From the NCBI GenBank assembly GCA_007136585.1, contig SLGR01000094.1, forward strand, positions 1-18,555: a stretch of 18,555 nt of DNA, read 5' to 3'. Positions within the stretch are counted from its first letter, which is position 1; the number at the start of each line of letters is the position of its first letter. The notes under the pieces were generated by a model that worked only from the letters and a program-made list of their open reading frames with translations, did no database searches and had not been told where the DNA came from. The stretch comes from Candidatus Sumerlaeota bacterium. Lineage in GTDB: Bacteria > CG03 > SLGR01. The position numbers were made by a program, and so were the translations under genes. Shown here piece by piece: positions 6,955 to 18,555 of this stretch.

Positions 6955-7694
6955 AAGTCTTTTACGCCTTCTTTCTTTTTGGATTCCGTGTTCTGTCTCA
7001 GTTTCACTACTGTTTCCGCCTCGTAAAACCCTCTGGCGGAGGTGTTGGGGTATATTACGGTTCCCCGGGAAAGAAGAGTCCCCGGAGCTGTAACAGAATT
7101 ACACCCTGTCTGAACCCCGTCTGCCATTATGGCGCCGAACTTCTTAAGCCCGGTCTCATATTTCCGATCCCCGATATCCAGTACGACCGGGGAGGGGACA
7201 AGTTTAAGATTGGCCAGTTTGGTTCCGGCTCCCAGGTTAACGCTTCCCAGGATACTGTCCCCTATATAAGCGAAGTGCCCGGCTTTGCTTTCATGTAACA
7301 TCACCGAGTTTTTCATCTCAGTGGTATGTCCCACTACGCACCCTGATCCTGTCAGGACGTTGCCGCGGATATAGGCTCCGTGGCGGACCTCTGTTCCGGG
7401 ACCTATCAGAGCCGGGCCTCTTATGTAGGCGCAAGGCTCCACCACGGCCTCTGCCCCTATCTCTATATCCCCTCCCTCAAGAAAGGCCCCTGCGTGTATC
7501 AGGGCCCCGTTATCCAGCCTGGTATCTTCAAGTACTGCTGAACCGTTTCGTCTTATCCCGGAGATATTAGGGGTAAGGATTTCCTCAACGCATTTCCTGA
7601 TATTTGCGAGGCCTTCCCAGACATACTCGGCATCTCTGAAAAGAATGTCGAAAATATCGTTTTTCGGGTCAAAAAAATCTTCCGGTCGAATCAT
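6951..7694 (-). CDS. GlmU C-terminal-like left-handed beta-helix acyltransferase, stand-alone
   Basis: A 247-residue protein dominated by hexapeptide repeats (roughly residues 55-230), the left-handed beta-helix fold of acyl- and acetyltransferases. Its short N-terminal piece includes DAEYVWEGLANI, a stretch common ahead of this helix in sugar-nucleotide enzymes. Residues 137-147 (KAGHFAYIGDS) match the GlmU acetyltransferase active-site segment KAGHLTYLGD, so His140 and Tyr143 align with E. coli GlmU His363 and Tyr366. Asn153 in VNLGAGT aligns with Asn377, with one residue fewer between. Known family members acetylate glucosamine-1-phosphate. Being first in an operon with glmM and glmS supports that role here (inference). 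There is no nucleotidyltransferase domain, so UTP transfer must be done by another protein. No ribosome binding site is seen before the ATG; see the promoter entry for a possible leaderless transcript. Confidence 0.85.
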   Translation of the reverse strand: MIRPEDFFDPKNDIFDILFRDAEYVWEGLANIRKCVEEILTPNISGIRRNGSAVLEDTRLDNGALIHAGAFLEGGDIEIGAEAVVEPCAYIRGPALIGPGTEVRHGAYIRGNVLTGSGCVVGHTTEMKNSVMLHESKAGHFAYIGDSILGSVNLGAGTKLANLKLVPSPVVLDIGDRKYETGLKKFGAIMADGVQTGCNSVTAPGTLLSRGTVIYPNTSARGFYEAETVVKLRQNTESKKKEGVKDL

Positions 7695-7700
7695 GGGAAA

Positions 7701-7729
7701 AGATTAGCAGAGAGAACGATAAAAATCAA
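7701..7729 (-). promoter_or_regulatory. Candidate promoter of the acyltransferase-glmM-glmS operon
   Basis: On the minus strand TTGATT (7729-7724) and TAATCT (7706-7701) are separated by 17 nt, a sigma70-like arrangement. Transcription would begin within about a base of the ATG at 7694, giving a leaderless mRNA. This fits the absence of a purine-rich ribosome binding site (the bases before the ATG read CTTTTCCC). The -10 match is only partial, so this is tentative. Confidence 0.35.
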
Positions 7730-7739
7730 GTTTTTATTG

Positions 7740-7765
7740 CCCGGAAAGAAGCCGGGGATCTCCCC
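7740..7765. other. Dyad symmetries between the divergent promoters
   Basis: Two overlapping inverted repeats sit between the divergent transcription units: CCCGG (7740-7744) with CCGGG (7752-7756), and GGGGA-TC-TCCCC (7754-7765). The second directly abuts the predicted -35 of the rightward promoter. It could be an operator or simply GC-rich chance symmetry; the 2-nt spacer makes it unlikely to be an RNA hairpin. Confidence 0.3.
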
Positions 7766-7794
7766 TTGAAATAAGATGAAAGTGGTGTTAATAT
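7766..7794 (+). promoter_or_regulatory. Candidate promoter of the riboswitch transcript
   Basis: TTGAAA (7766-7771) and TAATAT (7789-7794) are separated by 17 nt, a plausible sigma70-like promoter. The start would fall near 7801, about 20 nt before the riboswitch aptamer, which is the arrangement expected for a riboswitch leader. Confidence 0.5.
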
Positions 7795-7818
7795 TTTATT
7801 GGAAGCAGTGATTTTACG

Positions 7819-7938
7819 CAGGAACCGATAAGGGCAAACCCGTCGAAAGACGGGGACGCAAAGCCGCGGGGCTAAAAATCAGCAATACGGGCTGAGAAAG
7901 CCGGCCGGGTTGCCGATTCACGCTAGCCGGGTTGCCGA
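7819..7938 (+). promoter_or_regulatory. Cyclic-di-GMP-I riboswitch aptamer (GEMM-I)
   Basis: The RNA matches the GEMM-I consensus point by point. AGGGCAAACC (7831-7840) is followed by a perfect hairpin CCCGTC-GAAA-GACGGG (7839-7854) with the GAAA tetraloop. Then come GGACGCAAAGCC (7854-7865), a second stem-loop arm with TCAGC...GCTGA (7879-7895), and the closing strand GGGTTGCC. By alignment to the Vibrio cholerae Vc2 structure, the ligand-contacting G20 is G7834, the intercalating A47 is A7861, and C92 is C7913 or C7935. G at position 20 points to c-di-GMP rather than cyclic AMP-GMP. The receptor is not the classic CCUAAG/UAUGG 11-nt motif. It lies in the 5' leader of the secreted-protein gene at 7974, with no intrinsic terminator between, so translational control is likely. 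Confidence 0.92.
7904..7938 (+). repeat. 13-bp direct repeat duplicating the riboswitch 3' strand
   Basis: GCCGGGTTGCCGA occurs at 7904-7916 and again at 7926-7938. Both copies contain the GGGTTGCC strand that closes the GEMM-I aptamer and supplies the C92 ligand contact. In copy 1, AGCC (7899-7902) pairs with GGCT (7870-7873) to finish the second arm. In copy 2, TAGCC (7924-7928) can pair with GGCTA (7870-7874) instead. The RNA therefore has two mutually exclusive ways to complete the binding pocket. Confidence 0.85.
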
Positions 7939-7940
7939 AG

Positions 7941-7956
7941 ATCTCCTGAAGGAGGT
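7941..7956 (+). promoter_or_regulatory. Hairpin able to sequester the ribosome binding site
   Basis: ATCTCC (7941-7946) pairs with GGAGGT (7951-7956) around a TGAA loop, six pairs including one U-G. The right half is the strongest ribosome binding site before the ATG at 7974, though the spacing to the start is long (17 nt). Separately, CAGGA at 7819-7823, just 5' of the aptamer, can pair with TCCTG at 7944-7948, which would break this hairpin. That gives a possible switch between a hidden and an exposed binding site. Confidence 0.55.
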
Positions 7957-7973
7957 TAGGCGGTGCCGGTATA

Positions 7974-9359
7974 ATGTTATTAAAGGAAAAAATTAAAAAG
8001 GCTGCGTGGTTTTTCCTGGCGTTTCTGTTTCTAACGGTCTCAGGAGCGTATTCTCTGGATATAATAATTCTGCCTCCGATTGACCTTCCTCCCGGCGGCG
8101 GAGATGAGGTGCTTACTCCTTCCGTCTCAGTTAACCCTGAAACCCTGAACCTCTCCAGCAATATAAGAAATATTACCGTTTATATTGAGTTTGCCGGAGA
8201 TTACTACGGTGACGAGGTAGACAGGGCGACGGTTAACCTTTATGCTGACGGATCCGGCCCCGTATCTGCCCTGGAACATCCGTGGGAGGCCTCCGGAAAT
8301 ACGCTTATGCTGAAATTCTGCGCTGAAGAGGTGAAAGGGTACCTTTTTACGGATGATAGTGCGGAGATATCCCTGGAAGGAGAGCTTTTATGCGGCCAGG
8401 TTTTTGCGGGCGGAAACACTATAAGGGTTATAGATCCTCCGGCTGAGTCCCCGGGCCGGGCGGATGAAACTCCCGGTAACATCGAAGATACCCCGGGTAA
8501 CAGCGGTAACGCGCCCGGAAGAAGCGGGGATACCCCGGGTAACAGCGGTAACGCTCCCGGGAACTCCCGGGGCGGAGGGTTTGGGGCGGCTTCTCTTTCC
8601 CAGGCCCGGTACCGTTACAGTCTTGAGCCTATCCCGGAGGAAGCCTCTCTTGTAAGCGCCTATATAGGAAGCGGACGGGGTTACGAGGTTACTGCCTTTG
8701 TAAGGGAAAAGTGGGTTGCGGGAGAAAAACTTATTGAACTCAGCGCGGCGTCATCCGGAGACGCTAACCTGTATATTGAGTACAGCATATCCGGGGGTGA
8801 AGAGTCCCTCGCAGCGGAGAGGCAGAACCTGAAACCCGTAACCGCTTCTCAGAAACCCCTCTCCGGTACTTCTCTGGTGCGTGTCTATTATGACGTCAGA
8901 TCTCTTGAGAGAACTGGGGTATCGGAAAGAGATATAGCCCTTTACGGGTGGAATGAGACAGGGAGGGCCTGGGAACCTGTAGAGGGGGCCGTTCTGGATG
9001 ACGTGGAAAAGAACCTTTCGGCCCCCGAGACCGGGAAGTACTCGCTGTACAGGGTTATGTCATCTGCGCCGGCGGAAGAAAGCAGGCCGGAAAAGGCTTC
9101 AAGCTCCCTGGGGCAGAATTATCCCAACCCCTTCAATCCGGCTACGACAATACCCCTGACCCTTACCCGTGACGGACACGTAACTCTGAAAATCTATAAT
9201 ATGCGCGGCCAGTTGGTAGCCACACTGGTAGACGGTTTTATGCCCGCCGGGAATCACAATATAGTATTTCCTGACGGAGAAACTCTTTCCAGGGGCGTCT
9301 ATTACTACCAGCTCAGAGCGGGAAGTGATGTTAGCACCAGGAGAATGGCCGTACGGTAG
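7974..9359 (+). CDS. Secreted protein with T9SS-type C-terminal sorting domain
   Basis: A 461-residue exported protein. Residues 1-27 form a signal peptide (KIKKAAWFFLAFLFLTVSG, then AYS). Residues about 53-153 form a beta-rich module of a kind that recurs in secreted proteins (NPETLNL, ITVYIEF, GNTIRV). A Pro/Gly/Asn-rich linker with tandem repeats covers 156-203. Residues 205-375 end in a segment like IALYGWNETGRAWEPVEGA, common just before surface-anchoring domains. Residues 378-461 are a sorting domain with GQNYPNPFNPATTIPLTL, VTLKIYNMRGQLVATL, RGVYYYQL and a basic end. In T9SS organisms such a domain directs outer-membrane passage with help from PorV. It is the first gene after the c-di-GMP riboswitch and is followed by a PorV-like gene. 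The ATG at 7974 is the only start in frame with the signal peptide. The function of the mature part is unknown. Confidence 0.85.
   Translation: MLLKEKIKKAAWFFLAFLFLTVSGAYSLDIIILPPIDLPPGGGDEVLTPSVSVNPETLNLSSNIRNITVYIEFAGDYYGDEVDRATVNLYADGSGPVSALEHPWEASGNTLMLKFCAEEVKGYLFTDDSAEISLEGELLCGQVFAGGNTIRVIDPPAESPGRADETPGNIEDTPGNSGNAPGRSGDTPGNSGNAPGNSRGGGFGAASLSQARYRYSLEPIPEEASLVSAYIGSGRGYEVTAFVREKWVAGEKLIELSAASSGDANLYIEYSISGGEESLAAERQNLKPVTASQKPLSGTSLVRVYYDVRSLERTGVSERDIALYGWNETGRAWEPVEGAVLDDVEKNLSAPETGKYSLYRVMSSAPAEESRPEKASSSLGQNYPNPFNPATTIPLTLTRDGHVTLKIYNMRGQLVATLVDGFMPAGNHNIVFPDGETLSRGVYYYQLRAGSDVSTRRMAVR
8487..8560 (+). repeat. 42-bp-period tandem repeat encoding DTPGNSGNAPG
   Basis: A 32-bp block at 8487-8518 recurs at 8529-8560 with one mismatch (GCG versus GCT, synonymous). 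The 42-bp period encodes the 14-residue unit DTPGNSGNAPGRSG. An older, diverged half-unit (ETPGNIE) precedes it. It forms a flexible linker between the N-terminal module and the rest of the secreted protein. Confidence 0.85.
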
Positions 9360-9368
9360 ATCTTCTTT

Positions 9369-10301
9369 TTGAAAAACCTCCGAAAATACATTTCCGCAGT
9401 TTTCCTTATAGTTATATTATTATGGTCTTCTCTCCCGGTTTCGGGTTCCGATACCGGAGCTGATTTTTTAAAGTTCGGGACCGGCGGGAGGCTTTCGGCA
9501 ATGGGGGAGGCTGGTTCCGCGCTTAGAACCGGACTTATGTCGGCGCACTGGAACCCTGCGGGTATATCCGGGGCCGATAGTATCCAGCTGGGGGCGATGC
9601 ATGCCTTTACCACAAGTGATTCTTCCATAGAGTTCGTCGGCACTATGATCCCGGCCGGGAGAATGGGGAATTTTGCTCTTTCCGCGGTGCTTCTGCGTAT
9701 TGACCCCATGGACAGGATGGATTACGAGGGTAACCTGATCGGTGATTATATCTGGAGGGAATGGGCCCTCACCGGGACCTGGGGTAGGGAGGCCTTTAAC
9801 GGTCTGCATGCCGGGCTGGCCGTTAAAATGATACGCAAGGAAGAGAAAGACCCTCTCCTGGGAGATTCATCCGGGACCGCCTTTGCTTTTGACACCGGTA
9901 TAATTTATGAACCGGAATTTCTTCCGGGTCTCTCTTGGGGTGTATCAGTACTTAACAGCGGGGACGGGATACGAATGAAAGGGTCTCCCGTAAAGGATAA
10001 ACTGCCCGGGGTTTTCAGAACGGGGGTATCTTATCTGTATGAACCCGTTATTTTCAGCGCGGAACTCGCCAGACCCCGCGGAAGCGGGTGGGAACCCGGG
10101 GTAGGAGCGGAGCTCAGGTACACGGAAAACCTGTACCTAAGGGGAGGATACTACGACCGCGAGGGGAATATAAGCGGAGTGACTTACGGCGCCGGATTTC
10201 AGTATAATATTCTCTCCATTGACTGGGCCAACCTTCCAGCCGGAGAAATGCTGGGAGCAACCAGGGAAAACAGGTTTTCAGTTGTTGTAAGTTTTAAATA
10301 G
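9369..10301 (+). CDS. PorV/PorQ-family (UPF0164) outer-membrane protein, TTG start
   Basis: A 310-residue predicted outer-membrane beta-barrel. Residues 1-26 are a signal peptide (MKNLRKYISAVFLIVILLWS). The mature protein starts with the family hallmark FLKFGTGGRLSAMGEAGSA, then HWNPAGIS; alternating hydrophobic beta strands continue to the C-terminal Phe-Lys. In T9SS, PorV is the shuttle and docking protein for cargo carrying C-terminal sorting domains, so a partner role for the upstream cargo is inferred. I chose TTG at 9369: it gives a textbook signal peptide, the only codons between the upstream TAG (9357-9359) and it are ATC TTC TTT, and no ATG or GTG offers an intact signal peptide. There is no good ribosome binding site, so translation probably depends on coupling to the upstream gene. 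Its stop overlaps the convergent kinase gene by 8 nt. Confidence 0.85.
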   Translation: MKNLRKYISAVFLIVILLWSSLPVSGSDTGADFLKFGTGGRLSAMGEAGSALRTGLMSAHWNPAGISGADSIQLGAMHAFTTSDSSIEFVGTMIPAGRMGNFALSAVLLRIDPMDRMDYEGNLIGDYIWREWALTGTWGREAFNGLHAGLAVKMIRKEEKDPLLGDSSGTAFAFDTGIIYEPEFLPGLSWGVSVLNSGDGIRMKGSPVKDKLPGVFRTGVSYLYEPVIFSAELARPRGSGWEPGVGAELRYTENLYLRGGYYDREGNISGVTYGAGFQYNILSIDWANLPAGEMLGATRENRFSVVVSFK

Positions 10302-12222
10302 GGAGCGTCATTATGAAGGCGCACCCTCCGTCTTTGCGGTTTTCCGCCCGGAGCCGGCCGCCGTGCGCTTCTGCTATTCTTCTGGCAAGAGTAAGACCCA
10401 GCCCCACTCCTTCTACCTGTCCTGTGAAGCTCTTCTCAAGCTGACTGAATTTTTCAAATACAGTTTCCAGATCTCCTGGAGGTATCCCGGGTCCGTTGTC
10501 TTCTATAACCAGTTTAAGGGTTCCGGCTTCCTGTACACCTTGAATAAAGAGTTTCTTATTCCTGGATGTATTGAATTTTAAAGCATTCTCAATAATATTC
10601 TCAATAGCTTCGCGAACCTTGTCTCCGTCCACAAAAACCCCTCGTATATCTCTCAGACCTGTTTTCTCAACTTCTGTGCCGCTCTCTTCAATAGAAGGTC
10701 TCAGTTCAGAGAGCACATCATCAACAAGTTCTTCAATTACGGTATTTCTCTTGCTGAGAGTTATATCTTCGGATTCAAGAAGAGTGAACCGCAGGAGACG
10801 GTCTACGAGTTCGGAGAGATGATTTGCGTTTTCATCAATCGTTTTCAGGAAATCCTTCTCCTCTTCGCTCAGTCTGGAGAGTGTCTCATTTTCATTAAGA
10901 ATGGAAGTAAAGCCTATAATGGAAGTAAGCGGGGTTCTGAGCTTATGGCTCATCAGGCGGAGGAAATTTTTCTTTACCTTCTCCTCTTTTTTAACCTCTG
11001 TAACGTCTCTAAAGACAAGCAGCCCGCTTGCGCTGCTGGATTTTTCTCCTTTTATGGCAGTGAAAGCTGCTGAGAGATACAGGGGCGTCGGCTTCTCTCT
11101 GGAGAGCTCGAAATGAACCGGCTCCGGCGTATTCATTAGTTCCCTGAGCGGTACAGTGGAGGTGAATCCGCTGAGTTTTACCTGGATATTCCCGTTTTCA
11201 AGATCTTCTCCGAGCAAGGCAGAGGCCGAGTTATTATGCATTACCACTTTCATCTCCTTATCAAGGAGGACCGCCCCGTCACTCATCTCGCTGAAAAGGG
11301 TATTCAGCTTGTCTTTCTCCCTGCTCAGGTTGTCAAATAGAGATGAGTTCTCTATAGCCACGGCGGCCTGGGCGGCAAATATTGAAAGGAGTTTTATATC
11401 GTTATCGGTGAACCCCTTTTCAAATTTTGAGCGATGCAGGTTTACAACTCCCAGAAGCCTTTTTCTGCTCACAAGGGGGACTGTTATAGCCGAATTTATT
11501 CCGTCGTAAGAGTCTATATGTCCGAACCGGGAATCGTTTTTGACGTTACCCTCAACCATTATATCTTCCCGGAGTTTTGCCGCGTATCCGGATATGCGGT
11601 CCCCGAGTTTAACCCTTCTTCCTATAACAATATCGCTTCTTCTTCCGGATGCGGCCTTGACCTCGAGTACGCCGGCTTCCTCATCCAGGAGCATTATGGA
11701 CCCCCCCTCTGCGTTAAGAGCGTCCCGGGCCAGTTCAACTATCAGATTCAGGAGTTCTTCAAGGTTCATTATTGAGCTTATCCCCTTGCTTGATTCGTAA
11801 AGGTTTATGACCTGCTTTAGTCCGCTTACTTCTTTTGCAAGACGCTGTTTCTCCAGGCATTTGTCAACCAGGATATGCACCTCGTCAAGATTAAGCGGTT
11901 TGGAGATGTAATCATAGGCTCCGAGCTTCATCGCTCCCACGGCAGAATCCACTGAGGCGTAAGCGGTCATAATAATGACTTCCGTTTCGGGGTGGGCGGA
12001 CCTTGCGGCCTTAAGAACGCCTATACCGTCAATATCCTGCATTTTCAGGTCAGTTATGACAACGTCGTAAACATTTTCCCTGAAAAGTTCAACCGCAGTT
12101 TCCCCGCACTCCGCTTCATCCGCAAGGTATCCTTCCGATTCAAAAAAATGTTTAAGCCCTATCCGAGCGTCGTCGCTGTCATCAACTATAAGAAGCTTTG
12201 CTTTTTTCTCCGGGTCACTCAT
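10294..12222 (-). CDS. Hybrid response regulator/histidine kinase: REC-GAF-PAS-HisKA-HATPase
   Basis: A soluble 642-residue signalling protein, no membrane segment. Receiver domain at 8-125: Asp14/Asp15, phospho-acceptor Asp58 (VVITDLKM), Thr86, Lys108. GAF domain at about 150-295. PAS-like domain at about 305-410. HisKA with His426 in MSHKLRTPL. HATPase_c at about 525-642 with the N box IENIIENALKF, G1 DNGPGIPP, F box FEKFSQ and G2 GVGLGLTLARRIAEAHGG. The residue after His426 is Lys instead of the usual acidic residue. I chose the ATG at 12222 (MSDPEKKAKLLIVDD), preceded by GGAG at a good distance and overlapping the upstream kinase stop by 8 nt; the in-frame ATG at 12264 lies well inside the upstream gene. 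The receiver is a likely target of the membrane kinase encoded just upstream (inference). There is no DNA-binding output domain. Confidence 0.93.
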   Translation of the reverse strand: MSDPEKKAKLLIVDDSDDARIGLKHFFESEGYLADEAECGETAVELFRENVYDVVITDLKMQDIDGIGVLKAARSAHPETEVIIMTAYASVDSAVGAMKLGAYDYISKPLNLDEVHILVDKCLEKQRLAKEVSGLKQVINLYESSKGISSIMNLEELLNLIVELARDALNAEGGSIMLLDEEAGVLEVKAASGRRSDIVIGRRVKLGDRISGYAAKLREDIMVEGNVKNDSRFGHIDSYDGINSAITVPLVSRKRLLGVVNLHRSKFEKGFTDNDIKLLSIFAAQAAVAIENSSLFDNLSREKDKLNTLFSEMSDGAVLLDKEMKVVMHNNSASALLGEDLENGNIQVKLSGFTSTVPLRELMNTPEPVHFELSREKPTPLYLSAAFTAIKGEKSSSASGLLVFRDVTEVKKEEKVKKNFLRLMSHKLRTPLTSIIGFTSILNENETLSRLSEEEKDFLKTIDENANHLSELVDRLLRFTLLESEDITLSKRNTVIEELVDDVLSELRPSIEESGTEVEKTGLRDIRGVFVDGDKVREAIENIIENALKFNTSRNKKLFIQGVQEAGTLKLVIEDNGPGIPPGDLETVFEKFSQLEKSFTGQVEGVGLGLTLARRIAEAHGGRLRAENRKDGGCAFIMTLPI

Positions 12223-13624
12223 TCTTCTCCGCGGGGAGAGTGAATATGAACTCTGCCCCTTCACCTACTTTTGATTTAACATTTATATCCCCACCCTGCT
12301 GACGGACGATGCCTTTTACTATGGCCAGACCCAGTCCGGTCCCTTTCTGTCCCTTGATCTTTTTCCTTATCCCTTTTACCTGTTCAAACTTGCTGAAAAT
12401 AGAGTCCAGCTGATCCTCTGGAATCCCCATCCCCGTATCAATGACCGAAACCCGTATGTAATCTCCTTCCGGGACCGCCTTTACGGTTATAGTTCCTTTC
12501 TCGGGCGTGAACTTTATGGCGTTACTTATAAGGTTGGTCAGAACTTGTCCGGTTCTTTCAGGGTCTGCGTAGGCCCGGGGTATATCCCCTGTCTCCATTT
12601 TAAGTTCTATGTTCTTTTTATCCGCCTGCACCCGGTAGAGAGATATAACCTCGTTTATCACCTCTTCAGCTCTGAAATTCTCCGGTATAATTTCCAGTTT
12701 ACCCCTTTCAAGTTTCGCGGTATCAAGAAGCGCGTTTATGAAGTTTTCAAGTCTCTTTGAATTTTTCTTCATAACCATAAGGGACTCCCTCTGCTTTTCA
12801 TTGATCCCTCCCAGGCGTTCTTTTATGAGGAGGTCAAAATGGATACCCATAGCGTTAAGGGGAGAGCGGAACTCGTGGGTTATGCCGGAGACAAAATCCT
12901 GTTTCATCCTGTCAAGTTCCGCAAGCTTGTTTGCCATCCTGTTTAAGGTTCGGGCCAGACTTCCGAGTTCGTCGCGGCTCGTTACCTCTATTACAGTGTC
13001 AAGTTTCCCACTCCCGATACTTTCGGCCCCGGCAGCCATTTTCCTGATGGGTTTTACCATCATTGCCGATAGGAGTACGGCCCCCAGAAACCCCAGGATA
13101 AGTCCTATTCCTGCTATTCCGAATATACGCTTTCGGGTCTCCGCGAGGGTATCATCTATTATCCTGGTGATACCGGGACTGGAGAAAGCGACAAGCGCCT
13201 GGGCCAGAACTTCTCCGGATACCTCAACAGGAGCGTGAGAGATCAGGAGTTCCTTCCCGTTTTTAAAATCCTGTATAGTTGCCGGTTCCGTTAAGAGTTC
13301 AAGTTCGGGTATATCAATAAAACTTCCCATTCTGTCCGGGTCAGAGTGCGCGATTACCTCACCTCCGGGTCTGAGTACCGCAGCGTAGACCACGGTATCG
13401 TCAATGGTTATCCCTCTGATATAATTTATGAGCTGTATGCGGCTTGAGGATATTTCTGATTCCCGGCCCACCCGGGCCAGCCCTGCCGCCGCTGAGCTGC
13501 GGGTCTCACGGATTTCCCTTAAAAGGAGGTTTCTTTCCTCTATATACAGAAAAATGGATACCCCGGCTATCACCAGCAGCGTGAGCGAGCAGGTGAGAAG
13601 CGAGAATTTGGTTCTAAGTTTCAT
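12215..13624 (-). CDS. Membrane sensor histidine kinase (HAMP-HisKA-HATPase)
   Basis: A 469-residue inner-membrane sensor kinase. TM1 is at about 7-28, followed by a predicted periplasmic sensor region of about 135 residues (containing AAVLRPGGEVIAHSDP, a pattern seen in PAS/Cache-like sensors). TM2 is at about 167-190 and HAMP at about 190-243. HisKA carries His250 in ITHEFRSPLNAM, with the normal acidic residue after the His. HATPase_c follows to the end (VLTNLISNAIKF, DTGMGIPEDQ, GTGLGLAIVKGIVRQQGG). The ATG at 13624 shares an ATGA overlap with the stop of the PorV-TPR gene, and the gene's end overlaps the hybrid kinase by 8 nt. Its position between a PorV-like gene and a receiver-kinase suggests it senses an envelope state connected to surface-protein export; the signal is unknown. 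Confidence 0.95.
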   Translation of the reverse strand: MKLRTKFSLLTCSLTLLVIAGVSIFLYIEERNLLLREIRETRSSAAAGLARVGRESEISSSRIQLINYIRGITIDDTVVYAAVLRPGGEVIAHSDPDRMGSFIDIPELELLTEPATIQDFKNGKELLISHAPVEVSGEVLAQALVAFSSPGITRIIDDTLAETRKRIFGIAGIGLILGFLGAVLLSAMMVKPIRKMAAGAESIGSGKLDTVIEVTSRDELGSLARTLNRMANKLAELDRMKQDFVSGITHEFRSPLNAMGIHFDLLIKERLGGINEKQRESLMVMKKNSKRLENFINALLDTAKLERGKLEIIPENFRAEEVINEVISLYRVQADKKNIELKMETGDIPRAYADPERTGQVLTNLISNAIKFTPEKGTITVKAVPEGDYIRVSVIDTGMGIPEDQLDSIFSKFEQVKGIRKKIKGQKGTGLGLAIVKGIVRQQGGDINVKSKVGEGAEFIFTLPAEKNE

Positions 13625-15501
13625 TCTTCAAGCTCCCTCCGGACCCTGTTCAGGTTTTCCGCGGCTTCCCTTAGATCCGGGTTATGGCGCAGGGCCTCCT
13701 CCCAGAGGGACTCGGCCTCGTGAAGATCCCCCCGGGAATATTCTATGAGCCCCCGGCGGTTAAGCTCCGCGGCCTTATCCCTCATATTACTAACAATCTC
13801 CTCTTTCTCCCCGGCTATATCTTCCGCGCCGTATTCTTCCGCTTTCCTGTAGTTTTCCAGGGCTTCAGGAAGGTTTCCTTCATCTCTCTTTTCCCTGGCC
13901 AGGTTTATGTAGGCCCCGGCTTTACCTGCTTTCGCTTCATCGTTTCCGGGGTCAAGTTCAAGAGCTCCCCCAAAGGATTCGGCGGCTTCGGCCCATCTTC
14001 CGGATCCCAGATGGCTCTCTCCTCTTTGAATCAGCGCTGTTATGTTACGCTGTCTTACCCTTTCGCGGCGTTCCCGCTCCAGCGCGGCCCGTCTTTCTTC
14101 AAGTTCTCTTATACGCAGGGAAGCCTCCCGGTATATCTCTTCCGCCGATTTGTTTTCGGGATCAATGGCAAGGGCCTTTTCGGCTTCTTCCCGGGCTTTA
14201 CCGAACTCCAGCCTTTCGTAATGTTCTGTAGCCCGGTCGGTTATGGTCTGGGAAACTTCCCGGAACCTGTTTTCAATAAGGTCTATGTACTCAAGGGCTC
14301 CCTTGTGGGCTGAGTATAGAAGTAGGATATCTTCAAAAGCAGCCCGGGCCGAGGTCAGGTCGCCTTTTTCAAAACGGTTTTTTCCTTCTTTAAAAGTATT
14401 TTCAATCTCCCTTTTTACCTCCGTGCTCTCAACAGAGACCTCTATGAGGCTGAGATACTCCTCTGCTTCGCGGTGGCGCGGGGCGACAAGGAGAAGGTTG
14501 CGGAACTCCCGGTAGGCGTCAAGTATGCGTCCGGCGCGGTAGTATCTCTCGCCTTTTTCAAAATGCTGCCTGATTTCTGCTTCAAGAGCTGCCTCCCGGT
14601 ATCCGTCCCCGAAGGTAAAGCTCAGGGAGAGCCTGTGAGAATCATCAAACCTGCCCCCGGGTACCCAGGCGTAATCAAGGGTGATATCGCGTGTGAGTAA
14701 ACCTCCGCCGAGCCTTATGCCGTTTGAGAGGTCATCTTTTCCAGTCCAACCGGTCCGTAAGGCGATGAGTCTGTGGAAAAGAACCTCAGCTCCCGCGGAG
14801 ATATATGAGCTTTCACCTGCCGGCGCAGTCATATTTACCCCGACTTCAAGTTCAGCACCCGCAAACTCAAACTCCCGGGTCGCACCCGCCCGGAAAGCCA
14901 GGGGAAGAGGGGATCTCTTCTTTATGAACCTCATCCCGTTTCCGATATTAAGCAGCGAGGCCCCGAGGCGGAGCCCTTCGGCCGGGGTTTTCCAGAGGAT
15001 GCCGGCATCGGCGGCCATAGATGTGGCGGAGTAAGTGTCAAGTTTCTCGTGCAGTATTTTAAGGCTGATACCGGGATATAAGGGGGAGAAGATTTTAGGA
15101 GAATACGCTATACCGGGAGAAAAAGCGTATGCACTTACGGACCCGGCCGGCATTCCATCGGGAGTATACGCGTCAATATCTCCCGAATGGTAGTACCCGG
15201 AAAATACCGCAAGTGTTCCGCGGAGGGGTTCCGAAGGATAGAGAAAAGCCGCCGCCCCGCGTCTCATCCCTTCGCCGGCCTCGTTATGTGCCAGGAATAA
15301 GTTGCTGAACCCGGCCGGGCCGACTGAAGCCGGGTTATACCACAGGGCCGAAGTGTCTCCTGTAAAGGCCGCCGCGGCTCCGCCCATTGCCGTCGCCCGG
15401 GCCCCGGTCTCAAAACGCAGGAAATGAGCCCCGCGGCCCCTGGACCGTCCGGTTCCCGAAAGAAGCATTACAAAAATAAACGTTGCCGCGGTTACCTTCA
15501 T
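13621..15501 (-). CDS. PorV/PorQ-family beta-barrel fused to a C-terminal TPR domain
   Basis: A 626-residue predicted outer-membrane protein in two halves. Residues 1-20 are a short signal peptide (TAATFIFVMLLSG). Residues 25-299 are a PorV/PorQ-type domain with HFLRFETGARATAMGGAAAA, SALWYNPASV and a barrel-closing strand RLSLSFTFG. Residues 312-620 hold about six tetratricopeptide-type helix pairs, for example KGERYYRAGRILDAYREF, EEAEKALAIDPEN, AESFGGALELDPGNDEA and GLIEYSRGDLHEAE, with a charged coiled-coil stretch at 462-488. Typical PorV/PorQ proteins end at the barrel. The TPR part follows the last strand, so it should face the periplasm if the barrel has the usual topology (inference). 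It shares ATGA overlaps with the surface-protein gene upstream and the kinase gene downstream. Confidence 0.88.
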   Translation of the reverse strand: MKVTAATFIFVMLLSGTGRSRGRGAHFLRFETGARATAMGGAAAAFTGDTSALWYNPASVGPAGFSNLFLAHNEAGEGMRRGAAAFLYPSEPLRGTLAVFSGYYHSGDIDAYTPDGMPAGSVSAYAFSPGIAYSPKIFSPLYPGISLKILHEKLDTYSATSMAADAGILWKTPAEGLRLGASLLNIGNGMRFIKKRSPLPLAFRAGATREFEFAGAELEVGVNMTAPAGESSYISAGAEVLFHRLIALRTGWTGKDDLSNGIRLGGGLLTRDITLDYAWVPGGRFDDSHRLSLSFTFGDGYREAALEAEIRQHFEKGERYYRAGRILDAYREFRNLLLVAPRHREAEEYLSLIEVSVESTEVKREIENTFKEGKNRFEKGDLTSARAAFEDILLLYSAHKGALEYIDLIENRFREVSQTITDRATEHYERLEFGKAREEAEKALAIDPENKSAEEIYREASLRIRELEERRAALERERRERVRQRNITALIQRGESHLGSGRWAEAAESFGGALELDPGNDEAKAGKAGAYINLAREKRDEGNLPEALENYRKAEEYGAEDIAGEKEEIVSNMRDKAAELNRRGLIEYSRGDLHEAESLWEEALRHNPDLREAAENLNRVRRELEE

Positions 15502-18500
15502 CGTATTATAATGAGCTTGCCCCTGGTAGAGTCCGTCTCGTTCTCTATATGATAGAGATAGACCCCGCTTCCAGCGTCTATATTATCCCATACCGCCTGT
15601 TCTCCCCCGTCATTTCTTATTCTTTTAACGAGTTTTCCGTCCGGGGAGTATATCCTTATGAGGCAGCCGGGAGTTATCTGGGTGAATGTAATGGAAGAAT
15701 CTCTGCCCTCAATATAAGGTACGGGGAAAGCGTAGGCCCGGGAAAGGTCCCCGCTTCCTGTAACTCCTATGGAAAAAACGCTGAGCCTGTCAGTTTCCGC
15801 GGAGAGAGTCTTAGAGACGGGGTCCCTTGAAAGCGGCTGAACCCGTGTCCAGAGACTGTTTGCCGTATCAAGTCGGTATATCTCAAGGGTATGCGCGCGC
15901 TCTTCTTCGCCCTCAGGAGAGCTGAAGCTGAGAGTCAGTGGCTTTTCAAACCTTTCAACGGATTTATTTCCGCTCCCGTAAGCTTTTATCTCAACAAGAG
16001 AAGTTTCTATTATAAGGGAGTAGGGGTCCCTGCCGAAACCGTGTTTCTCTCCGGCCCTTGCGGCGGCGCTCAGGGCTGCCTGCGGTATCTCAGTTGATAT
16101 AATTATAAAAAACTTATCCCGTGCCGCATTTTCCGGAATATCCACGTTTACGGTTTCCCCCGCTCCGGAGACCCGGTTTGAATCCGCGGGGTCAAGTATA
16201 GTCGTAAATACCGATTCCGAACCGGCAAAGCTGTTGAGAAGCGTATCGGAAGCTTCAGAGGATATCTCAACACGGTATGAGTAGTTATTTTTTAATATTT
16301 CCTCCGGGGTGAAGGTAAATGTATGAAGGCCTGATACGGTATCGTAAGACTCGCTGAAATCAAGGTCAAGAGGTTCAGCTCCTTCTAAGACCCTGTTCCT
16401 GTTATCTCTCACCGGGTAAACGGATACAGCTTCACGGGTTTTCCCGATACTCATCCGTTTATTGAAACCCATACTTATTGGGGTCCCGGTCTCAATACCC
16501 GCCGCCCCGTCCAGGGGGGTTAGAGATACAAGCTCGGGCGGTTCCCTGTCATCCGGGGTGAACGACCCCGAAAGTATAAATTCAGATACAGCCGTGTTCC
16601 CAAGAGTATCGGTGATAGCCACAGGGACGCTTGATATGCTTACGCGGGAGCCGTCTGTGCCGTATTCGGCGTATAGGGTAGTTGAAGAGGTATCGGTGAA
16701 GTACACGGTTATCACCTCACCTGACTCGTTCCATTCCCCGTATGCCTCTCCCCAGGAGAGTCCTCCTTCCGGCACAAATACAAGGTCAATATTGGAAGAG
16801 TCCACGGTTGGCCTGTTCGTTGGTTCGCTGAAAGTTATGACGACGTAATCACCGTCGTCGGGGCCCGGGCGGGGGATCCCACCGTCACTTGCGATCGCGC
16901 TCAGAACCGCCGGCGGCGCTCCGTCAGTGCAGGCCTCGGCCGAAAACCCGGTGCTTCTGCCGGATGTATCGGTGAAAGCCCCGGCTTCGCATTCAAGCAT
17001 GGGGGTTCTTCCGGTTTTCATTATGCCGTCGGTAAAGTAAATATAAATAATCTTCGGGTTCATTACATCCGCTTCTGCGTCTGTAATATCAACCTCGCCT
17101 CCGGCTATGGTTATCTTTTCCGGATCGGTCTTGCCCGCGTTCATATTCTTATCAAACCTTAGACGTACAGCGTCAATATACCCGTTTGAGCTCCTGTCCA
17201 TAGTGGTTCTTGAGATTATCGCGGGTGTGGATAGATCCACCCCGAAATCCCCTTCAAGTACAAAGGTATGACTGGAGGAGTTCCCCGCCGCATCGGTAAA
17301 GGTGAAGCTGTCAACAAGTATCTCAAACCCGGTATCTATGGTTGGAGCCCCGCCGCTGGCTGAAAGCGTTATGGTAAGTCTGGTGTTGGCCGCGCCCCAT
17401 ACCGCTGAACCGATAAAGCCGTCCCCATCGGTCCAGGTGGTTCCTACCGGAGGGGTAAGCACGGAGTCTATATTTTCATTTGTTATCAGGGGCGGCGGGG
17501 ATACTGCCTCGCTGAAGGTTAAGATTACTTCATCCCCTGCTTGTATACCCGGCTCGTTACCCGATGCCACAGCTTCATATATTACAGGAGACGCTCCGTC
17601 CCTTACGGAGAGAGACCCGTAACCTGCTAAAGGTATCGGGTCGGGCTCAAGACCAGTGAGTCCTCCGGTGTCTTCAATATACTCAAGTTCCGGGGTTATC
17701 CCGGTATCCTGTGACTGGTTTGAAAAGGATATCTCAATTAATGTCTTATCCGGGCTTACATAAGTTATACTGCGGTTGTCAAAGGCCCCTATTAGAAGCC
17801 CGTTAGGGTTAAAGGCCGAGGTATCTACAGCCTTATTGAACTCTATTGCGATCCCATCAACAACCCCGTCCAGGGCGCTGTCAATCGTCCAGGCGTCTGT
17901 TATTCTTGGGCAGTCAAGGGCGATAGTCCTTGAGGAGATATTGTTATTATAATTATCCTCTATTATACTTTTCCCGTCATTGACCCGCAGGAATATATCG
18001 TAGTACCCGGCCGGCACTCCGTCGGTATCCCACTGGGTATGAACCTGTTTTTGGCCGCCGCCGGGAACCGGCCCGATAGTAGTGCTTGATATAAGAATGC
18101 CGTCATTTGAAGGATTCCCTCGAAAAAATTCCACGGTCGTTTCTGTTGCACCGTAAACCATAAAAGTAAGATCATTTGTGTAGCTTACTGACCAGCTGTT
18201 TCCCTGATCTTCAGAAGTCGCCGGTCTACCCTGCTCAAATGCCCCCGAGCTGTCGGCTGCCCAGCCGTAGCCGTCAAAGTCTTCACCTATCGGAGAGTTT
18301 GCCGCGGTGCTCTTTGCAACTATCCAGTACGTAGTTCCCTCTGTGAGTTTAATATGTTCCGGAAAAGGGATATCCCTCCATCGTAATCCTGATTTAGGAA
18401 TATTAACGGTGGAGGTGGCAAGGGAGATTCCAGAAGGAACAGGATCAGCTCCCGAAAAATCGCTTTCCTGAATATTTACGGTCAGATCGGAGTTTCCGCT

Positions 18501-18555
18501 GTTTGAGATGAAAAGTTTAACTCCGGCGAAATTTATATTATTTTTAAAATAAACT
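15498..18555 (-). CDS. Large multi-domain surface protein with C-terminal sorting-type domain (5' partial)
   Basis: The frame is open to the right window edge, so the start and signal peptide are missing; 1018 residues are visible. The ATG at 18161 is internal: 131 more residues of sensible protein lie before it. Numbering below counts from that Met. Before Met1 there is a beta-sandwich segment with TYWIVAKS and WAADSSGAFEQG, typical of 'choice-of-anchor'-type domains. Residues 5-85 resemble a CARDB adhesion module (GYYDIFLRVND, EDNYNNN). Residues 88-536 are two tandem units of about 224 residues, each with a DG.(I/V)DG-like strand and a GD.V.ITFSE strand. Residues 540-655 resemble a bacterial Ig-like (Big_5) domain (PPELVSLTPLDGAAG). 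The region at about 670-800 is beta-rich. Residues 808-887 form a FlgD/T9SS-like C-terminal domain (AYAFPVPY, LIRIYSPDGKLVKRI, SGVYLYHI). It is probably a surface adhesin or structural protein exported with the PorV-TPR protein, whose gene overlaps its stop as ATGA. Confidence 0.85.
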   Translation of the reverse strand, partial: VYFKNNINFAGVKLFISNSGNSDLTVNIQESDFSGADPVPSGISLATSTVNIPKSGLRWRDIPFPEHIKLTEGTTYWIVAKSTAANSPIGEDFDGYGWAADSSGAFEQGRPATSEDQGNSWSVSYTNDLTFMVYGATETTVEFFRGNPSNDGILISSTTIGPVPGGGQKQVHTQWDTDGVPAGYYDIFLRVNDGKSIIEDNYNNNISSRTIALDCPRITDAWTIDSALDGVVDGIAIEFNKAVDTSAFNPNGLLIGAFDNRSITYVSPDKTLIEISFSNQSQDTGITPELEYIEDTGGLTGLEPDPIPLAGYGSLSVRDGASPVIYEAVASGNEPGIQAGDEVILTFSEAVSPPPLITNENIDSVLTPPVGTTWTDGDGFIGSAVWGAANTRLTITLSASGGAPTIDTGFEILVDSFTFTDAAGNSSSHTFVLEGDFGVDLSTPAIISRTTMDRSSNGYIDAVRLRFDKNMNAGKTDPEKITIAGGEVDITDAEADVMNPKIIYIYFTDGIMKTGRTPMLECEAGAFTDTSGRSTGFSAEACTDGAPPAVLSAIASDGGIPRPGPDDGDYVVITFSEPTNRPTVDSSNIDLVFVPEGGLSWGEAYGEWNESGEVITVYFTDTSSTTLYAEYGTDGSRVSISSVPVAITDTLGNTAVSEFILSGSFTPDDREPPELVSLTPLDGAAGIETGTPISMGFNKRMSIGKTREAVSVYPVRDNRNRVLEGAEPLDLDFSESYDTVSGLHTFTFTPEEILKNNYSYRVEISSEASDTLLNSFAGSESVFTTILDPADSNRVSGAGETVNVDIPENAARDKFFIIISTEIPQAALSAAARAGEKHGFGRDPYSLIIETSLVEIKAYGSGNKSVERFEKPLTLSFSSPEGEEERAHTLEIYRLDTANSLWTRVQPLSRDPVSKTLSAETDRLSVFSIGVTGSGDLSRAYAFPVPYIEGRDSSITFTQITPGCLIRIYSPDGKLVKRIRNDGGEQAVWDNIDAGSGVYLYHIENETDSTRGKLIIIR
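16554..17900 (-). repeat. Two diverged tandem ~224-residue units inside the surface protein
   Basis: Protein-level repeat. Unit 1 spans about 17900-17232 and unit 2 about 17231-16554. Each begins with a Big_5-like half (TIDSALDGVVDGIAIEFNK versus TMDRSSNGYIDAVRLRFDK). Each continues with a second half opening DGASPVIYEAVASG versus DGAPPAVLSAIASD, followed by GDEVILTFSEAV versus GDYVVITFSEPT, and ends in a F.LEG/F.LSG strand. DNA identity has largely decayed, so the duplication is old. Confidence 0.7.

Follow-up and report, generated by a model that had tools for sequence, protein, structure and literature searches.

The window analyzed here is the whole 18,555-nucleotide stretch of contig SLGR01000094.1 from Candidatus Sumerlaeota bacterium, and on its forward strand it carries a two-gene cassette preceded by a structured leader. 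The first gene (7974-9359) encodes a cargo protein with a signal-peptide-like N-terminus, Gly/Pro/Asn-rich repeats and a C-terminal tail resembling those of type A T9SS substrates, which scored 34.9 with TIGR04183 (cut-off 23) and 27.7 with Pfam Por_Secre_tail (cut-off 27). The second gene (9369-10301) encodes an outer-membrane protein of the PorV/PorQ family (NF033709, 127.9 against a cut-off of 90) that is the likely shuttle of the cargo. Its product scored 56.5 bits with the PorV equivalog model (NF033710), not reaching the cut-off of 250, and fell far under the PorQ equivalog cut-off (220), and it is thus neither PorV nor PorQ proper. A first-pass annotation had proposed both the NYPNPFNP-type sorting domain, whose motif lies at 9117-9140, and the PorV/PorQ family of the neighboring gene, and both assignments held. 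The linker of the cargo (8440-8580) is made of repeated Pro-Gly-Asn-Ser type units (TPGNSGNAPG...). A second cassette of tail-protein and PorV-TPR genes lies on the minus strand of the window (13621-18554), without a riboswitch, and adjoins two overlapping sensor kinase genes (10294-13624).

The near-consensus GEMM-I aptamer that the same annotation had placed in the leader was borne out by covariance models. RF01051, the Rfam GEMM-I model, matched 7823-7939 on the forward strand with 80.2 bits against a cut-off of 35 and an E-value of 2.5e-16 per genome, and a chance match is excluded. RF03167 (c-di-GMP-I-GGC), which belongs to the same clan, matched 7824-7918 with 74 bits against a cut-off of 59, and in a scan of the whole Rfam library it was this model, not RF01051, that was best of the clan by E-value. 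An RSV_RNA match at 7649-7817 was dismissed as chance (16.5 bits against a cut-off of 105). The window RNA resembles known GEMM-I riboswitches in its whole aptamer, the GAAA tetraloop of P2, its pocket bases and its location in a 5' leader; it differs from them in having its closing strand in two copies, the second of which doubles as a hairpin or terminator arm, and in its predicted target, a T9SS-like cargo-PorV cassette.

The two alignments stop on different copies of this duplicated strand. The P3/P1 closing strand (GCCGGGUUGCCGA) is present at 7900-7918 (copy 1), where RF03167 ends, and again at 7922-7941 (copy 2), where RF01051 ends; the core bases are identical (13/13), and copy 2 can form 12 of 12 closing pairs. 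Copy 2 doubles as the 5' arm of a hairpin just 5' of the start codon (7926-7970; -22.8 kcal/mol, z -3.7, with 0 of 200 shuffles equally stable), which buries the Shine-Dalgarno sequence AAGGAGG at 7949-7955. Because copy 2 can make closing pairs as well, the aptamer has two rival closures, of which one prevents the hairpin. As read from the sequence, the Shine-Dalgarno is 7 nt from the GTG of a mini-ORF (GTG CCG GTA TAA, 7963-7974) and 18 nt from the annotated ATG of the cargo gene at 7974; the stop codon of the mini-ORF overlaps this ATG (TAATG), and our guess is that the cargo is translationally coupled through it. No U tract follows the hairpin at 7926-7970, and control in the window is therefore probably translational. 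In the thermodynamic model this hairpin was more stable than the aptamer closed by either copy, and closure by copy 1 left it intact. Switching would therefore need kinetics or ligand energy outside the model, and the folding energies did not decide between an ON and an OFF switch.

The same arrangement was found in other genomes of the phylum, where loci are denoted by genome and contig. In two leaders of G003, in G012/G014, in G007 and in G008:C69, a strong terminator with a final U run takes its 5' arm from a second copy of the strand. Twelve P1/P3 closing pairs were modelled. Copy 2 can form every one of them in the window, in both G003 leaders and in G012; it can form 11 in G005. In G007 each copy forms only 8. 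The RF01051 match extends to copy 2 in the window and in G008:C69 and closes on copy 1 in most relatives, while in G004:C100 and G006:C179 the sequence reads as a sole closing strand running straight into the terminator. Given that either the match reaches copy 2 or the sole closing strand enters the terminator, G008:C69, G004:C100 and G006:C179 are expected to be ON switches like pilM. The Geobacter pilM riboswitch, a GEMM-family ON switch for 3',3'-cGAMP (PMC9262584), has in common with these leaders a closing strand that competes with a terminator; pilM has one such strand, whereas here it is duplicated and the output of the window looks translational. The idea that duplication is a usual GEMM-I trait was rejected, as 12 GEMM-I loci of other phyla showed no second copy.

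Taken together with the gene content, we consider it likely that the GEMM-I riboswitch controls the cargo-PorV surface cassette, somewhat more probably as an ON than as an OFF switch. The 5' strand of the aptamer can pair with one or the other of its nearly identical 3' strands, and copy 2 also serves as the 5' arm of the ribosome-site hairpin, or of an intrinsic terminator in relatives; c-di-GMP would stabilize the copy-2-closed aptamer, preventing the hairpin and turning the cassette on; and export of the cargo over the outer membrane would use a T9SS-like SprA translocon, after which the co-encoded PorV-family shuttle would receive it.

For the window, ON is the somewhat likelier direction, favored by analogy with the ON-type relatives, RF01051 closing on copy 2 here as it does in G008:C69. 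The opposite sign is a serious, if less probable, competitor: c-di-GMP would lock closure by copy 1 and leave copy 2 free for the hairpin or terminator, and without ligand copy 2 would displace copy 1 and so act as an antiterminator. Copy 1 is transcribed before copy 2, and RF03167, like RF01051 in most relatives, aligns to it, but the GEMM-I model itself closes with copy 2 in the window and in G008:C69. Closure by copy 1 is compatible with the hairpin, and in three relatives closure by copy 2 was computed to be more stable than that by copy 1 before the terminator is complete, as displacement needs; on the other hand, in G012 copy 2 is the better-pairing copy, and the sole closing strands of G004:C100 and G006:C179 have the layout of an ON switch.

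The ON reading for the window also includes an export route. An SprA-like protein is present in 15 of the 16 genomes, in frames of about 1,650-1,760 aa that match the model at several places; that of the window genome (1,756 aa, E 6e-27) is a partial match of 92 bits, under the curated cut-off of 200. The C25/PorU sortase (PF01364) had no match in the window genome, which is 88% complete, or in its order, and was found in family f5 only; GldM/PorM (TIGR03517) had no match in the 16 genomes, and the controls gave none either. Since the SprA-like match lies under its cut-off and neither C25/PorU nor GldM was found, we call the route T9SS-like only, presumably using a diverged SprA-like protein. 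It is unlikely, though worth weighing, that the tail is instead a FlgD-Ig-like C-terminal domain with no type IX system, in which case the switch would control an ordinary secreted protein and an outer-membrane protein. FlgD_ig does match the tail, at 23.3 bits and under its own cut-off, but the tail exceeds the cut-off of TIGR04183. The want of PorU/C25 in the order and of GldM in the 16 genomes (controls also silent) and the partial, sub-cut-off SprA matches would fit such a reading, but nearly every genome has an SprA-like frame of this size with several regions that match the model; and while the PorV-family protein falls under both equivalog cut-offs, tail and PorV genes are systematically paired, as a substrate and its shuttle would be. 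The favored route is T9SS-like export, with the cargo at 7974-9359 and the PorV-family protein at 9369-10301 as a likely substrate-shuttle pair.

The numbering of the ligand contacts was transferred by hand from the Rfam alignment, with the Vc2 aptamer as the reference: G20 corresponds to 7833, A47 to 7860, and C92 to 7913 in copy 1 or 7935 in copy 2, all on the forward strand. By this mapping the pocket, made of G7833, A7860 and C7913 or C7935, matches that of an ordinary c-di-GMP switch. The window shares its overall aptamer with RF03167; at the A47 position, however, the consensus of that model (GACGCGAAgCc as printed, in our own reading) has a G, which the window, with GACGCAAAGCC, lacks. 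That a real aptamer here binds another cyclic dinucleotide, be it 3',3'-cGAMP or the one recognized by the GGC variant, is very improbable: RF03167 is the top match of the clan by E-value, but the window has G at position 20, where a G20A change in the class I GEMM aptamer has been studied in connection with cGAMP binding (PMC6274999), and A rather than the GGC consensus G at position 47. The window RNA looks like a genuine c-di-GMP-sensing switch, with c-di-GMP as its predicted ligand, and synthesis of c-di-GMP is plausible in this organism because its genome has nine GGDEF matches, at least five of them with an intact GG[DE]EF motif.

The first-pass annotation had proposed a search with the Rfam GEMM-I model in the window and in related genomes, and this gave 23 aptamers in all, in 13 of the 16 phylum genomes examined. 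A PorV-family gene lies downstream at five non-orthologous loci (class 1), at four of which a tail gene is visible as well. Besides the window these are G005:C170, with a 1,248-aa tail protein and then a PorV truncated where the contig stops; G014:C2 (with a near-copy in G012:C62), with a FlgD-like protein of 356 aa, a 1,947-aa tail protein and a PorV of 183 bits; G007:C43, with a 286-aa protein, a long tail-bearing protein and a PorV; and G003:C4, where the first gene is masked, the tail hence not visible, and a PorV follows. At G013:C1, weak tail and PorV matches lie four and five genes downstream. The other aptamers precede a response regulator (G004:C100 and G006:C179), a CsgG-like gene (G003:C4b), a serine protease (G008:C69) and a cluster with a spermidine-synthase/TPR protein (G004:C91). 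With orthologues counted once and class 2 (described below) set aside, 9 loci were resolved, and a tail or PorV gene lay at most three genes away at about 5 of them; the binomial chance of this is near 1e-3 at a rough expectation of 10% per locus. Tail or PorV genes make up ~60 of roughly 1,700 genes in the window genome, and the pairing of riboswitch and cassette is therefore unlikely to be chance when the relatives are counted.

The proposal that GEMM-I before T9SS cargo is common among T9SS bacteria found no support: among 50 genomes from other lineages that bear such tails, most of them of the FCB group, none had the arrangement, in a run with strict filters in which no control matched. 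In another phylum (L132, G042:C12), a 77-bit GEMM-I at contig positions 9112-9188 precedes a secreted protein whose weak tail-like C-terminus is cut by the contig end. We found no published link between a GEMM riboswitch and T9SS in the open-access literature, where the two papers joining c-di-GMP, riboswitches and T9SS concern Porphyromonas signalling.

The window genome has 31 PorV-family and 29 tail matches. With profiles built in-house and over the fetched stretches of this genome, 17 of the 21 PorV frames examined followed a same-strand tail gene, frequently with a 4-nt overlap; among the 17 is the class-2 PorV gene, where the other riboswitch of the genome lies between PorV and tail gene. 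Cargo plus PorV is therefore the standard unit here, and the riboswitch sits on one or a few units per genome; in the window genome only one cargo-PorV cassette has this switch. Across the phylum sample (G000-G015) such two-gene cassettes are expanded to about 20-30 per genome, with frequent 4-nt overlaps. In a tree of 73 PorV proteins the riboswitch-linked ones were scattered, those that were well placed lying beside PorVs without a riboswitch; the PorV of the window formed a long branch of unsure placement. We therefore rejected the idea that the riboswitch tracks one orthologous PorV, and different lineages have different cassettes behind the switch.

The first-pass annotation had gone further and put surface-protein export through a T9SS-like route under second-messenger control. 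Since the riboswitch, tail and PorV partner were all confirmed and the arrangement recurs in relatives, we infer with good support that c-di-GMP controls T9SS-like cargo; the control would extend to one cassette of about 20-30, however, not to export as a whole, and the route is only T9SS-like, PorU/C25 being absent from the order. Type B substrates of T9SS are paired with their own PorP/SprF, the substrate gene being linked to that of an outer-membrane shuttle as here, whereas the type A CTDs of Flavobacterium johnsoniae all use one PorV (PMC12618676). In the present genomes type-A-like tails each adjoin a PorV-family gene, which would extend the known type B pairing of substrate and shuttle.

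Beyond the duplicated closing strand, the analysis turned up a further element outside the earlier annotation, a second GEMM-I operon (class 2). The other GEMM-I of the window genome (C145:3450-3534, 49.4 bits) opens a locus (L111, G000:C145, 3450-9182) with genes for a PorV-TPR protein, FliG and a coiled coil. It has counterparts in G001, G003, G004, G005, G008, G009, G012 and G014 (loci of relatives L129, L127, L125 and L126), with one orthologous operon downstream that was read furthest in G003 and G004: PorV-TPR, a membrane protein with FliG(M+C) and TPR, a proline-rich coiled coil of ~1,300 aa, FlbD, MotA and MotB. FlbD, MotA and MotB were seen only in relatives because the contig of the window genome ends within the coiled-coil gene. 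The PorV-TPR proteins of this operon form a single clade in the 73-protein tree. FlhA was absent from 16 of 16 genomes (four control genomes matched) while FliG_C was present in 12 of 16, and the operon thus very probably encodes a non-flagellar FliG-Mot machine. A terminator 5' arm complementary to the aptamer's own 5' strand is the usual layout of an OFF switch, and in the window's order the class-2 leaders have this complementarity (GAUAAAGGCAACC with GGUUGUCUUUAUC in the window genome).

A promoter-like motif, GTGTTA-N10-GGA, lies at 7785-7803 on the forward strand of the window and is common to other GEMM-I loci of its order. The pattern GTGTTA-N(about 10)-GGR occurs 36-60 nt upstream of 8 of the 23 aptamers, of both classes and all in this order, against a background of ~0.0017 per 75 nt, a comparison that is not blind, the motif having first been spotted by eye in the same leaders.

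The usual logic of c-di-GMP sets sessile against motile life. Should class 1 prove ON and class 2 OFF, c-di-GMP would favor surface proteins over the motor. We offer only tentatively a broader picture for a phylum that lacks flagella: by way of two kinds of GEMM-I platform, c-di-GMP would trade surface cargo, switched ON as cargo-PorV cassettes, for a non-flagellar FliG-MotAB machine, switched OFF, that includes a PorV-family outer-membrane component. Such a machine might be a novel motor for gliding or secretion in the place of GldLM. The role of rotor proteins without a filament is a question raised in PMC12199754, on which a c-di-GMP-linked FliG/MotAB operon in bacteria lacking the flagellar export gate would bear. 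A GEMM-I platform with two competing closing-strand copies is also a ready system for the study of strand exchange. For this uncultured organism itself, the second messenger probably has a part in selecting the surface protein to be made, relatives repeating the arrangement with different cassettes; acting directly at the level of RNA, it would control the choice of T9SS-like cargo.
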